DNA from: an uncultured Flavobacteriales bacterium
GTDB taxonomy: Bacteria > Bacteroidota > Bacteroidia > Flavobacteriales_G > Salibacteraceae
NCBI GenBank assembly: GCA_943788775.1
Contig: CALSRO010000009.1
Coordinates: 1 to 64,000 of the forward strand
Length of the DNA stretch: 64,000 bases
Reading direction: 5' to 3'
A program made the position numbers and the translations under genes. Shown here piece after piece: positions 26,034-30,130 of this stretch. The notes beneath the pieces were generated by a model, which worked only from the letters and a program-made list of their open reading frames with translations, made no database searches and was not told the origin of the DNA. Each line of letters begins with the position of its first letter. Position 1 is the first letter of the stretch.

Positions 26034-26521
26034 GTTGAACTGATTTTATGGATGTCATTATTATCCATTTCGATTTCATCCTTTATGTGTTCCATTTTTT
26101 TGGCAAGTAGAGCAAACACCTTCGTTTCTGGAGTCATTAGTTTTTGAAAGGCATCTTCATCGCCATCTCCGGCCATTGCCATTAGATGCAACAGATTAAA
26201 GTTATTTGTCTTTAGCCAAGTCAAGGCGTTTTTATTCCCTTCAATGCCATTAATTAATGCCATCAGATGCGGAAAACCATTGGCCAGCAACCAATCTCTT
26301 GAACGATCTTCATTTCTGAGGGCATAGCGAAATAGTGCGAGTTCTGGAAAACCATTTTTCATGAACCATTCTGTGATTTTTTGGTTTCCATCGATGCATT
26401 CTCCCCAAGCAACTAAAACCTTGGCTTCATATTGTAACCCTTTTGGTGTGAGTTTCGTCATAGAAATCAATATTGTTTCTAGGTCATTTCTTCTGGAATA
26501 GAAATTACCTTTGGTTTTCAT
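26030..26521 (-). CDS. Hypothetical protein with 25-residue W..NGFP repeats
   Basis: 163 residues from ATG 26521 (MKTKGNFYS). A helical protein, no signal. Three consecutive units of about 25 residues share the pattern 'WF/L..NGFP.L' (ITEWFMKNGFPELALFRYAL, SRDWLLANGFPHLMALINGI, ALTWLKTNNFNLLHLMAMA), so an ankyrin-like alpha-solenoid is plausible. No named family is recognised. The start is 7 bp from the start of the divergent gene at 26529, so each promoter must lie inside the other's coding sequence or close to it. Confidence 0.6.
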   Translation of the reverse strand: MKTKGNFYSRRNDLETILISMTKLTPKGLQYEAKVLVAWGECIDGNQKITEWFMKNGFPELALFRYALRNEDRSRDWLLANGFPHLMALINGIEGNKNALTWLKTNNFNLLHLMAMAGDGDEDAFQKLMTPETKVFALLAKKMEHIKDEIEMDNNDIHKISST

Positions 26522-26528
26522 TTCAAAG

Positions 26529-26777
26529 ATGTCAAAAATCAATTGGAAATATACAGGTGTAGCTGCGGTCTTGACTTTTATTGTCATTTCAGCATGCGAA
26601 CGCACATGGACTTGCCGTTGTGAAAATTATGACGGACAATTTGAATATGTCATCATTGAAAAAGCGAAGGAAGATGAGGCAATTGAAGTGTGTGATAGTC
26701 TAACAGGAACTGATTTGAACGGTGCATTAGTGAGACGATGCGAATTGAACGGAAAGTATAAAGGCCCGACTAAATAA
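26529..26777 (+). CDS. Small cysteine-containing lipoprotein-like protein
   Basis: 82 residues from ATG 26529 (MSKINWK). A leader span (about 7-23) ends ISACERTWTCRCENYDGQF, with Cys at the lipobox position, followed by CRC and single Cys later (VCDSL, RCELNG). Similar in size and cysteine pattern to the proteins at 27703, 27958 and 29924. It is 2 bp before the MauE/thioredoxin-like gene, implying shared translation. Function unknown. Confidence 0.65.
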   Translation: MSKINWKYTGVAAVLTFIVISACERTWTCRCENYDGQFEYVIIEKAKEDEAIEVCDSLTGTDLNGALVRRCELNGKYKGPTK

Positions 26778-26779
26778 CC

Positions 26780-27676
26780 ATGAAAATCGTAATACTAATT
26801 CTTCGAATCCTTTTGGGATTGATTTTCATCGGTTCAGCAGCACTCAAACTGTTTCCTATCGAGGCCTTCGAATTAGTTTTAATCAAACAGGTTGGTTTTT
26901 CGTGGGCTGCGGCTCCATTTTTTGCAAGACTGATCATCCTATTCGAATTTGCACTTGGTATTGCGCTCGTTTTTGGATGGAAGGCTAGGCTTACAATATG
27001 GGCAAGTTTAGCTATGCTGGCATTTTTTACTCTATTCCTCGGTTATCAAATAGTTATTGGGGCTGGCGATGAAAACTGTGGATGTTTTGGTGAATTAATT
27101 CCGATGGACGCTCCTACCAGCATTGCTAAGAACTTAATCTTAATTGCTTGGTCACTCGTTCTCCTTTGGCAGTTTCACTTTCACAAGAATTGGAAGTATA
27201 GTTGGATCAATTTGATAGTAACCTTTATAGCCATCCCAGCCTTGTTTCTAGCCTTACCATTACCTGAAGTGGATCTAAACAAAGAAGCAACAATTGGCGA
27301 TGAACTCGTTGAAATTCTTGATTCTGACTTAGAATGGGATTTGAACGAAGATGACAAATTAATTGTGGTGATGATGGCGAAATGTGTCCATTGCAAGCAA
27401 TTGGCCTCATTGCTCTCTACATTAGAACCTACCAAGGCTCAATCCACTTTGAGAATAATCGTCTATGGATCGGATGAGAGTATCCAAGAGTTTGTATTAG
27501 AAACTGGAATCGAATCATTTCAAGTCAAGCGAAGTGCTAACCGAAATTTATTGCAAGCAATAAATGGCACTTTTCCAACGGCTATGCTTGTTAAAGAAGG
27601 AGACATAGTATCCAATTGGACCGGATCAGAATTGAATATTAACCTTCTTTCTAAGGTGCTACAGAATAAAGAATAG
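26780..27676 (+). CDS. MauE/DoxX-like membrane protein with C-terminal thioredoxin-like domain
   Basis: 298 residues. Four membrane spans in the first ~160 residues (ILLGLIFIGSAALKLFP, LIILFEFALGIALVFG and others) carry the DENCGCFGELIPMD motif (about 94-107), typical of MauE/DoxX-like redox proteins. A soluble C-terminal domain (about 175-298) has KLIVVMMAKCVHCKQLASLL with a CXXC pair (about 202-205), a thioredoxin-like active site. Bacteroidota use such proteins for disulfide exchange across the membrane. It lies among small cysteine-rich lipoproteins (26529, 27703, 27958), so electron transfer to these partners is a reasonable inference, not shown. Confidence 0.82.
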   Translation: MKIVILILRILLGLIFIGSAALKLFPIEAFELVLIKQVGFSWAAAPFFARLIILFEFALGIALVFGWKARLTIWASLAMLAFFTLFLGYQIVIGAGDENCGCFGELIPMDAPTSIAKNLILIAWSLVLLWQFHFHKNWKYSWINLIVTFIAIPALFLALPLPEVDLNKEATIGDELVEILDSDLEWDLNEDDKLIVVMMAKCVHCKQLASLLSTLEPTKAQSTLRIIVYGSDESIQEFVLETGIESFQVKRSANRNLLQAINGTFPTAMLVKEGDIVSNWTGSELNINLLSKVLQNKE

Positions 27677-27702
27677 GACTTGAATTATTACCATTGCTCG
27701 TT

Positions 27703-27954
27703 ATGAAGAACCTTTTGAAATTTGCTGTTGTATTTGTTGTTCTAGCATTTGCAAGTATGTCTTGTAAGCGTTGCTATCAATGTGTTGTGCGTGAAGACGC
27801 GAGTGACAGCCTGAGATGGGCTTACAAAGAGGTGTGTGTATCCAAGAAGGACTACGATGCCTACAAGGATATTTGCAAAGAAGCTGCTGAAAATGGTTCT
27901 GATGAGACTACGACATTGTATTGTGATTGTGCAGAAAACCTAGTAATTGAATAA
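27703..27954 (+). CDS. Cysteine-rich small lipoprotein (83 aa)
   Basis: Leader and lipobox (LAFASMSCKRC) are followed by C-x2-C-x2-C (CKRCYQC), a VCVSKKDYDAY segment and CDC near the C-terminus. About eight cysteines occur in the mature part. The start is ATG 27703 (MKNLLK), 26 bp after the thioredoxin-like gene. Next gene starts 3 bp after its stop. No named family is recognised; the cysteine layout matches the gene at 27958. Confidence 0.7.
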   Translation: MKNLLKFAVVFVVLAFASMSCKRCYQCVVREDASDSLRWAYKEVCVSKKDYDAYKDICKEAAENGSDETTTLYCDCAENLVIE

Positions 27955-27957
27955 GTA

Positions 27958-28170
27958 ATGAAACAATTAATAATTCTATTAGGAACCATTTTCATCCTTG
28001 GTAGTTGCGACAAGTGTCACGTTTGTGTGGTTAAAGATCAAGATAGCATTACTCGCTATGAATATCCTGAGGTGTGTGGTTCCAAAAAAGAATTAAGTGC
28101 CTATGCCGATCAGTGCGAAACGGAATACGGTAAATACAACCAGACATGTGCTTGTGGTGAAGCTCCGTAG
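27958..28170 (+). CDS. Cysteine-rich small lipoprotein (70 aa), paralog of 27703
   Basis: Leader and lipobox (TIFILGSCDKC) followed by SCDKCHVCVVKDQDS, again C-x2-C-x2-C, then VCGSKKELSAYADQC and TCACGEAP. The order of cysteines and the segment V-C-x-S-K-K-x-x-x-A-Y are shared with 27703, so the two arose by duplication. Its end overlaps the likely GTG start of the broken beta-lactamase-like gene. Confidence 0.7.
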   Translation: MKQLIILLGTIFILGSCDKCHVCVVKDQDSITRYEYPEVCGSKKELSAYADQCETEYGKYNQTCACGEAP

Positions 28171-29282
28171 TTTCAACCTTTACATATTCGCTTACATATT
28201 CGTACTTTTTGGTTGTGAGGAGGATACACCGCGCGATGTGCCTGTTGTTTCACGATGTTCCCATCGAAGCACAAGCTCCCGAATTGCTCGATTCGACCAG
28301 TATCATTGCTATTGAAGATTATTTCACCAAGCTATTTGACGAAGGGAAATTTAACGGTGTGGCTTTATTCCATAGGGATAGCAAGCAATATGCGTTTGCA
28401 AAAGGCTTAAAAAGTTGTGAAGGAACCGGTGATTCATTAACCATTCAGGATCAATTTCAATTGGCTTCCTTATCCAAGCCATTCACGGCATATGCTGTCT
28501 TGCAATTGATTGAAAGAGGATTAATAAACATGGAAGATTCATTGACTGAATTTTTGCCCTGTACACCATACAATAACGTCACCATTAGGCACTTACTAAC
28601 GCATACAAGTGGTATTGGTTATTACGCTTATGTGACGGATAGCTTATGGGATAGTCCTGAAAACATGATGAGCAATGCAGACTTGCTCACAATGATGGAG
28701 TGCAAGGAGATACCCAACTATTTCGCACCATCCAGATACTTTGATTATTGCAATACGAACTATGCGCTGCTAGCCAACGTAATAGCCAATGTTTCGGGAA
28801 TGCCATTTCATGACTATATGAATACTCACGTTTTTGAGCCCTTAGGCATGGAACATTCGGAAATTATGCAATCAGAAACTAGGGATGCCACTATGTATGA
28901 CGTACAAGGTCATTTTCCAAATCGCGAATCAAAATTGCCTTCTTATTTAGATGGTATAGTAGGTGATAAGGGCATGTATAGCACGCTAGATGATCTATTG
29001 AGGTTTTATCAAGCCAAGGGCACATCTCAGTTTGTAAATGATTCCATTTGGAACGAAGCAACAATGCCCCAAGAAAAATATGGTAGAAATCTGTACTATG
29101 GATATGGCTGGAGAATAAAACCGATTCAGAATGGAGATACCTTGGTATATCACAATGGCTGGTGAAGAGGATTTCGCACTTATTTCTGGATGTCGAAAAA
29201 AACGGATAAAGTTTGTATTGTCCTAACCAATTGGGTACGGGGCGGATATCTTAATCAAAAAGAAGTTTGGTTGTTGTTTTAG
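28157..29282 (+). pseudogene. Class C beta-lactamase-like serine hydrolase, frameshift plus nonsense codon
   Basis: Lipoprotein leader starts at a GTG at 28157 (KLRSFNLYIFAYIFVLFGCEED). The frame shifts by +1 near 28240 and continues as EAQAPELLDSTSIIAIEDYF. Catalytic motifs are present: S-x-x-K (LASLSKPFTAY), Y-x-N (YCNTNYALL) and H-x-G (YHNGW). At 29163 a TGA interrupts the frame exactly where Trp is expected (HNGWW-RGFRTYFWMS); the same frame then runs to TAG at 29280-29282. Two independent lesions suggest true decay, though consensus error remains possible. Family members act on D-Ala peptides or esters; the specific substrate is unknown. Confidence 0.8.
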
Positions 29283-29923: not shown

Positions 29924-30130
29924 CTACTGAGATACGCAAGTAGCTCCTTGCCCTTCACGTTCGTCAATTTCAGATTGATCAGCAGTACATATTTCTTGCG
30001 ATTCACTTACTGTGTCTGTAGGAGTGCTTCCAGAATATAAAATAACGTCTTCAGAACACTCATAACAAGTTGAGCAACTCGTAAGTGCTAAAGCGGCTAT
30101 TGCGATAAAAACTAAAACTAGATTTTTCAT
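29924..30130 (-). CDS. Cysteine-containing small lipoprotein (68 aa)
   Basis: From ATG 30130 (MKNLVLVF). Leader and lipobox (ALALTSCSTC) then CSTCYECSED, i.e. C-x2-C-x2-C as in 27703 and 27958, later ICTADQSE and TCVSQ. The same leader type and cysteine spacing place it in the cluster family, though it lies on the opposite strand. It overlaps no gene; the upstream bshA stop is at 30163, 32 bp away. Confidence 0.65.
   Translation of the reverse strand: MKNLVLVFIAIAALALTSCSTCYECSEDVILYSGSTPTDTVSESQEICTADQSEIDEREGQGATCVSQ

Follow-up and report, generated by a model that had tools for sequence, protein, structure and literature searches.

The membrane enzymes DsbB and VKOR, the latter including VKOR-thioredoxin fusions, combine a helical membrane domain, a cysteine pair and a thioredoxin domain. 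AssT has an oxidase pair dedicated to it, DsbL and DsbI, whose genes lie next to its own. MauE and MauD serve MauA, a small cysteine-rich periplasmic protein, in the maturation of methylamine dehydrogenase. Among the active-site motifs, CPHC and CGHC belong to the oxidants DsbA and PDI, while CxPC is found in thioredoxin and the ResA-like reductases. Bufferin clusters (DUF2282, MNIO, DUF2063 and DoxX) are described as containing DoxX genes together with small four-cysteine precursors (PMC12452194). Lipoprotein RiPPs also exist in Bacteroidota and use a C-terminal CPxCGxG motif (PMC12636315).

We analyzed a 64,000-nucleotide stretch of DNA (the window) that is part of contig C9 in the genome assembly (3.1 Mb, 11 contigs) of an uncultured Flavobacteriales bacterium. 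The window encodes a MauE-thioredoxin fusion next to small cysteine-rich lipoproteins of two classes, A and B. We found that the fusion is inherited together with small lipoproteins of even cysteine number. Among the titles and abstract openings listed by searches of an open-access collection, none concerned the fusion-lipoprotein pair.

Results

Gene layout of the module

The initial annotation had listed three small lipoprotein genes, at 26529, 27703 and 27958, interleaved with a MauE/thioredoxin-like gene, and all four were found at those positions (Table 1). The gaps it gave between A, the fusion, B1 and B2 (2, 26 and 3 bp) were the same on recheck. Lipoprotein A has the lipobox ISAC followed by the pattern C-x5-C-x-C...C...C, and B1 and B2 share the pattern C-x2-C-x2-C...C...C...CxC. 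A class A profile that covered mature sequence only, and from which the genus of the window had been left out, recovered the class A gene of the window.

Only 7 bp (26519-26529) separate the start of lipoprotein A from the likely start of a divergent 163-aa gene, so the two promoters should overlap each other's coding sequence. Downstream of the module, a gene for a beta-lactamase-like serine hydrolase (28209-29165) ends at an in-frame TGA stop (29163-29165). Its relative at locus L047 (3338-4441) reads on, and the frame in the window is open to ~29280; the window gene is either broken, affected by a sequence error or the source of a shortened protein.

Table 1. Features of the module and its surroundings in the window
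Feature	Position	Strand	Length (aa)	Cysteines and other properties
Class A small lipoprotein	26529..26777	+	82	lipid Cys23; Cys29, Cys31, Cys55, Cys71; predicted beta-beta-alpha-beta fold
MauE-thioredoxin fusion	26780..27676	+	298	predicted helical membrane bundle plus one extra TM helix
Fusion cysteine sites	26780..27676	+		CGC loop C100, C102; CxxC = C202-V-H-C205
Class B small lipoprotein B1	27703..27954	+	83	six Cys beyond lipid Cys
Class B small lipoprotein B2	27958..28170	+	70	six Cys beyond lipid Cys
Look-alike CxxCxxC lipoprotein	29924..30130	-	68	position conserved in genus

Co-occurrence of the fusion and class A lipoproteins

A class sample of 149 genomes, drawn evenly from the class, was searched for both partners. 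The fusion was full-length in 31 genomes, as judged from coverage and E-value, weaker or partial in six that were set apart (G071, G079, G085, G118, G151 and G173) and absent from 112. Class A lipoproteins (E <=1e-6) occurred in 30 of the 31 full-length genomes, 2 of the 6 weaker or partial ones and 7 of the 112 fusion-free ones; only part of the first-look candidates of many genomes was scored (e.g. 38 of 106), which makes the absences and the 7/112 soft. The difference between full-length and fusion-free genomes gave a Fisher p of about 5e-23 with relatedness ignored. When the six weak or partial cases were counted as fusion-free, class A was present in 9/118 and p was 2e-22. Profile A6 for class A was built from fusion-adjacent lipoproteins and may miss unlinked types. 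In the sole full-length genome without class A (G107), the fusion lies at the very end of a contig.

The finding named initially as speaking against the proposal, that the lipoproteins mostly occur without the thioredoxin-like gene, was looked for and the opposite was seen: the 39 class A genomes comprised 30 with a full-length fusion, two with a partial or divergent one and seven with none. Four genomes (G081, G115, G153 and G174) carry both partners far apart, so the co-occurrence is not just linkage. By hand tally, 25 of the 31 fusions had a class A gene within 1 kb (that of G006 through a weaker match; G107 and G120 are at contig ends), and 15 of the 65 families in the sample contained both partners. 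One genome, G183, held 17 class A matches scattered through the genome and one full-length fusion.

Genomic linkage

Among 60 relatives, 25 had a near-full-length fusion, and a small cysteine-rich lipoprotein gene adjoined it in 24 of these, the exception being G014; the fusion of G008 is cut by a contig end. Divergent partners in G015, G026 and G041 each lie beside a class A gene; profile A2, whose training set did not include these three, detected it in each case.

We also performed an independent scan of named genomes with the fusion as sole query; of 201 places, the best 80 were retained. The closest fusions among these best 80 came from Flavobacteriales and Salibacteraceae assemblies. Linkage was scored when a small same-strand ORF that has a lipobox plus four or more further cysteines lay within 1 kb, and 66 of the best 80 of 201 loci had such a lipoprotein. 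Of the loci outside the genus with at least 400 bases of upstream sequence, 53 of 65 were linked. The density of lipoprotein ORFs around these 65 loci was 1.15/kb at 0-500 bp from the fusion, 0.27 at 500-1000 bp and 0.05 at 1000-1500 bp, with none at all in the 208 kb that lie 3-5 kb away. Every lipoprotein ORF within 1.5 kb (94/94) was on the strand of the fusion. Most were just upstream of it, the nearest upstream lipoprotein being at a median distance of 57 bp, and some loci had up to four copies.

On a tree of 79 fusions the adjacency label changed 8-9 times and the losses were sporadic, which suggests an old adjacency with occasional loss. Twelve of the 77 non-edge loci in the tree were without an adjacent lipoprotein, and the three Chlorobiota and Ignavibacteriota rows were all without one. 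No third conserved gene was found that stays close and consistent around the module. The recurring neighbours, named by eye from sequence, look like housekeeping genes (e.g. MutS and an OmpA-like protein), and the flanking genes vary from lineage to lineage.

The fusion protein

The initial description of a MauE-like protein with a CXXC thioredoxin-like C-terminus agreed with our analysis. Residues 1-130 match Pfam MauE (PF07291) at 85.3 bits (cut-off 27). The C-terminal part scores below the cut-off of Pfam Thioredoxin (PF00085; 16.7 bits vs 23.5), and the predicted structure, which is confident (pLDDT 89.9, pTM 0.80), shows its thioredoxin fold clearly. Structure comparison of residues 173-298 gave Z 14.0 with DsbF (122 aligned, rmsd 2.5) and Z 12-13 with ResA, and besides the fold this part has a CxxC and the later conserved Pro266. 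The predicted helices span residues 2-24, 27-38, 44-65, 69-92, 111-134 and 141-158 and are followed by the thioredoxin domain. The membrane part aligned with NACHO/TMEM35A (9h9e_B) along 116 residues (Z 11.9, rmsd 2.4); similarity on this scale between helical proteins may reflect a common arrangement only. No match of the fusion (P0002) to Pfam DsbB (PF02600) or VKOR (PF07884) was found up to E 1. Neither VKOR nor DsbB appeared among the listed structure matches of the whole fusion, a list that is filled by the thioredoxin part and excludes nothing.

Seventeen positions were invariant in 77 of 77 fusions: S19, K23, P26, F30, E31, R50, E56, G60, C100, G101, C102, G104, K117, N118, C202, C205 and P266. 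The CxxC read CxHC in 75 of the 77, including CPHC in 36, and CxPC in none. Loops 66-69 and 134-141 are basic, and loops 93-111, which holds the CGC, and 159-175 are acidic. From these charges, the CGC and the CxxC are likely to lie on the same, periplasmic side of the modelled bundle.

The same domain order, a MauE domain and then a thioredoxin-like domain, occurs in the NCBIfam BT_3928 family (NF045576). Membership of the fusion in this family was considered and rejected, since it scored 67.2 bits, over residues 6-152 only, against a cut-off of 250, and a true member is encoded elsewhere in the same genome. That protein is a separate 462-aa frame (G000:C1:220339-221637) which reaches the cut-off. 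All 77 fusions matched the NF045576 model, every one under its cut-off. Long BT_3928-type proteins (L032-L035) keep the Cys-x-Cys loop of MauE, and four of the five long forms examined have no CxxC. The separate location of the BT_3928 gene and the long forms without CxxC indicate that the short fusion is a paralogue of its own, with the CxxC retained. No class A or B neighbour was found at five long BT_3928-type loci (L031-L035); the loose cysteine pattern picked one unrelated ORF each at L033 and L034.

Class A lipoproteins

The 114 linked lipoproteins, for which at least four further cysteines were required, had four in 95 cases, six in 17 and five in two, so that the number was even in 112/114. 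Without this threshold there were 121 same-strand neighbours within 1 kb, seven of them with fewer than four cysteines. Even numbers fit what structural disulfides would leave. Class A made up 93 of the 114. Its four cysteines are invariant in a 76-row alignment, and only one other mature position, a Lys close beside the lipid anchor (81%), is more than two-thirds conserved, as taken from 83 sequences from outside the genus. In the beta-beta-alpha-beta model (pLDDT about 90 across the core), strand 1 carries Cys29 and Cys31, the helix Cys55 and strand 3 Cys71. Comparison of class A with the PDB gave no Foldseek match below E 0.5, a best VIA match of Z 4.9 and no sequence match; a missing PDB relative of a predicted model does not prove a new fold.

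No Pfam family matched the module lipoproteins above its cut-off, and NCBIfam matches were sub-threshold only. The PG1828 family (NF050142, cut-off 50 bits) likewise consists of small lipoproteins with a similar signal peptide, but its curated cut-off was not reached here: P0003 scored 14.6 and P0005 25.3 in the window, with no match for P0001 and P0004, and the highest score printed among five relatives was 29.7 bits, several matches stopping near the signal peptide. At E 0.01 or better, NF050142 matched 44 of the 76 class A rows.

Two known types of exported protein were tried as candidates. A surface-export (LES) signal, given in PMC5080379 as K-(D/E)2 or Q-A-(D/E)2 after the lipid cysteine, was rejected for the module lipoproteins, having been found in 5/114; many of the 114 carry K-K-D, with a single acidic residue only. 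The variability and copy number of the lipoproteins would nevertheless fit outer-layer or surface roles. A RiPP reading was set aside, as the genome has no MNIO and no modifying enzyme recurs near the module. The C-terminal CPxCGxG motif of the lipoprotein-RiPP type is absent from the module lipoproteins.

Class B and the look-alike lipoprotein

A common origin of A and B found no support: profile comparison aligned 33 columns, mostly signal peptide, and mature-only A and B profiles failed to find each other within the window. As judged by these profiles, the likeness of A and B appears limited to the signal peptide and the cysteine pattern. Class B was detected in the genus and in few other genomes, all close relatives. 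Its strong matches (E <1e-15), on most of which the class B profile was trained, all adjoin the fusion except G015:C6 (E 2e-20).

The lipoprotein at 29924, which had been annotated as a fourth relative, turned out to share the C-x2-C-x2-C start, whereas no significant similarity to either class was seen in its mature part. It matched B at E 4e-4 among the window ORFs, a score that was gone without the signal peptide, and it occupies the same place in 12/12 genus loci. Another CxxCxxC lipoprotein (L004:1339-1674 and L053:2973-3203) has a large exported-protein gene on one side and an RNA-methylase-like gene on the other; a comparable site near MutS is taken by the fusion module in other Bacteroidota (genes named by eye).

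The gene block of the window, consisting of the 163-aa gene, class B, the beta-lactamase-like gene and a LON-domain gene, is present in G015 without A and the fusion (44-59% identity for three genes compared). Thus, either class B acquired the A-fusion pair as a neighbour within the genus, or G015 has lost the pair. Elsewhere in G015 (L048:2941-4020), a class A gene adjoins one for a thioredoxin-like protein with CKYC, a hydrophobic N-terminus and no detectable MauE, suggesting that the module can do without a MauE domain in some cases. Its core appears to be the thioredoxin-like protein with the lipoprotein, usually driven by a MauE domain that can be replaced.

Discussion

We propose that the module is a cell-envelope redox system of Bacteroidota in which a membrane disulfide oxidase would act on dedicated lipoprotein clients, a reading that we consider evenly poised between right and wrong. 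The lipoproteins, to judge from their lipobox, would be exported and lipidated, and the two active sites of the fusion would face the periplasm. The thioredoxin domain, with C-x-H-C as in DsbA and PDI, would then oxidise the cysteine pairs of the exported lipoproteins. The CGC loop of the MauE domain would re-oxidise the thioredoxin domain and pass the electrons to the membrane, probably to menaquinone. As dedicated clients, the lipoproteins would be tiny disulfide-braced domains on a lipid anchor whose non-cysteine sequence is nearly free to vary. The initial annotation had suggested a dedicated disulfide-handling or redox relay system for these lipoproteins. A dedicated link holds across Bacteroidota and is strongly supported; the general relay gave way to disulfide formation, favored by the CxHC motif, the CGC loop and the even cysteine counts, as the reaction that we infer. 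More tentatively, and with some doubt on our part, the fusion could be a third kind of membrane enzyme that makes disulfides de novo, besides DsbB and VKOR. It would consist of a DoxX-type bundle with a CGC loop, in Bacteroidota lacking both, and its dedicated clients would be tiny lipoproteins, fast-changing and disulfide-braced, that have their own fold.

The fusion could instead be a reductive or isomerising partner, in which membrane electrons passing through MauE and the thioredoxin domain keep the lipoproteins reduced or proof-read, as ResA and CcmG do in cytochrome c assembly. The nearest solved structures of the thioredoxin part do include the reductases ResA, CcmG and StoA. However, the active-site dipeptide is x-H in nearly all fusions and never x-P, the even cysteine counts suit structural disulfides, and the recurring neighbours other than the lipoproteins look like housekeeping genes. 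We consider this role unlikely.

Slightly less probable still is a general envelope oxidase that replaces DsbB or VKOR for many proteins, with the lipoproteins as accessory factors or as the most closely linked of its clients. Neither DsbB nor VKOR was found in the genome of the window, and only 3 of the 60 relatives have either: VKOR occurs in two (G025 and G045), neither with the fusion, and DsbB in one (G014), the only one of the 25 fusion genomes whose fusion has no lipoprotein neighbour, a single case that would agree with this role. Proteins of the DsbA family were found by Pfam in 39/60 relatives, so other oxidants may exist; this Pfam family also holds cytosolic members. Thioredoxin-fold candidates are thus present where a recognised membrane oxidase is absent, a gap that the fusion could fill and that fits our preferred reading as well. 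Against a general role, the tight linkage and co-occurrence with one small family exceed what a general enzyme would need, and 112 of the 149 class genomes do without such a fusion.

Metal handling appears improbable. Here the lipoproteins would bind copper or zinc and the membrane protein would protect or load them, as DoxX accompanies bufferins. The four cysteines of class A recall the four conserved ones of the Buf1 precursors, whose clusters have core DoxX genes (PMC12452194). On the other hand, the MNIO enzyme of those clusters (PF05114) gave no match in the genome of the window, which places the module outside the bufferins, and was present in only 21/60 relatives; class A has no conserved His or Met. 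A chance or merely inherited neighbourhood is hardly credible, for although such lipoproteins are multi-copy in some genomes, as in G183, and relatedness inflates the counts, the ORFs vanish 3-5 kb from the same fusion genes, co-occurrence holds where the partners are unlinked and the flanking genes differ by lineage.

Our preferred reading, the dedicated disulfide oxidase, turns an anonymous gene pair into a testable pathway that may explain how envelope disulfides form in Bacteroidota lacking DsbB and VKOR. It offers an entry to a lipoprotein family taken by no Pfam or NCBIfam model and would tie the DoxX/MauE superfamily to a clear chemical function on a defined client.

Several features of this proposed oxidase recur in known systems. 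As in DsbB and VKOR, a helical membrane domain with a likely periplasmic cysteine pair is combined with a thioredoxin domain, but the fusion is outside both families by sequence and its membrane part matches NACHO/TMEM35A. As in DsbL-DsbI with AssT, the putative dedicated oxidase is encoded beside its client, although the membrane protein and the client are not known to be related to DsbI and AssT. With the bufferins, the module shares a small exported four-cysteine protein next to a DoxX-type membrane gene; it differs in that MNIO is missing, the small protein is lipid-anchored and the membrane protein carries a thioredoxin domain. No methylamine dehydrogenase subunit was found among the ten module and neighbouring proteins scanned. 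The likeness to MauE/MauD and MauA is that a MauE-type membrane domain and a thioredoxin-like protein serve a small cysteine-rich periplasmic protein, whereas here MauE and thioredoxin are one protein and the clients would be lipoproteins.
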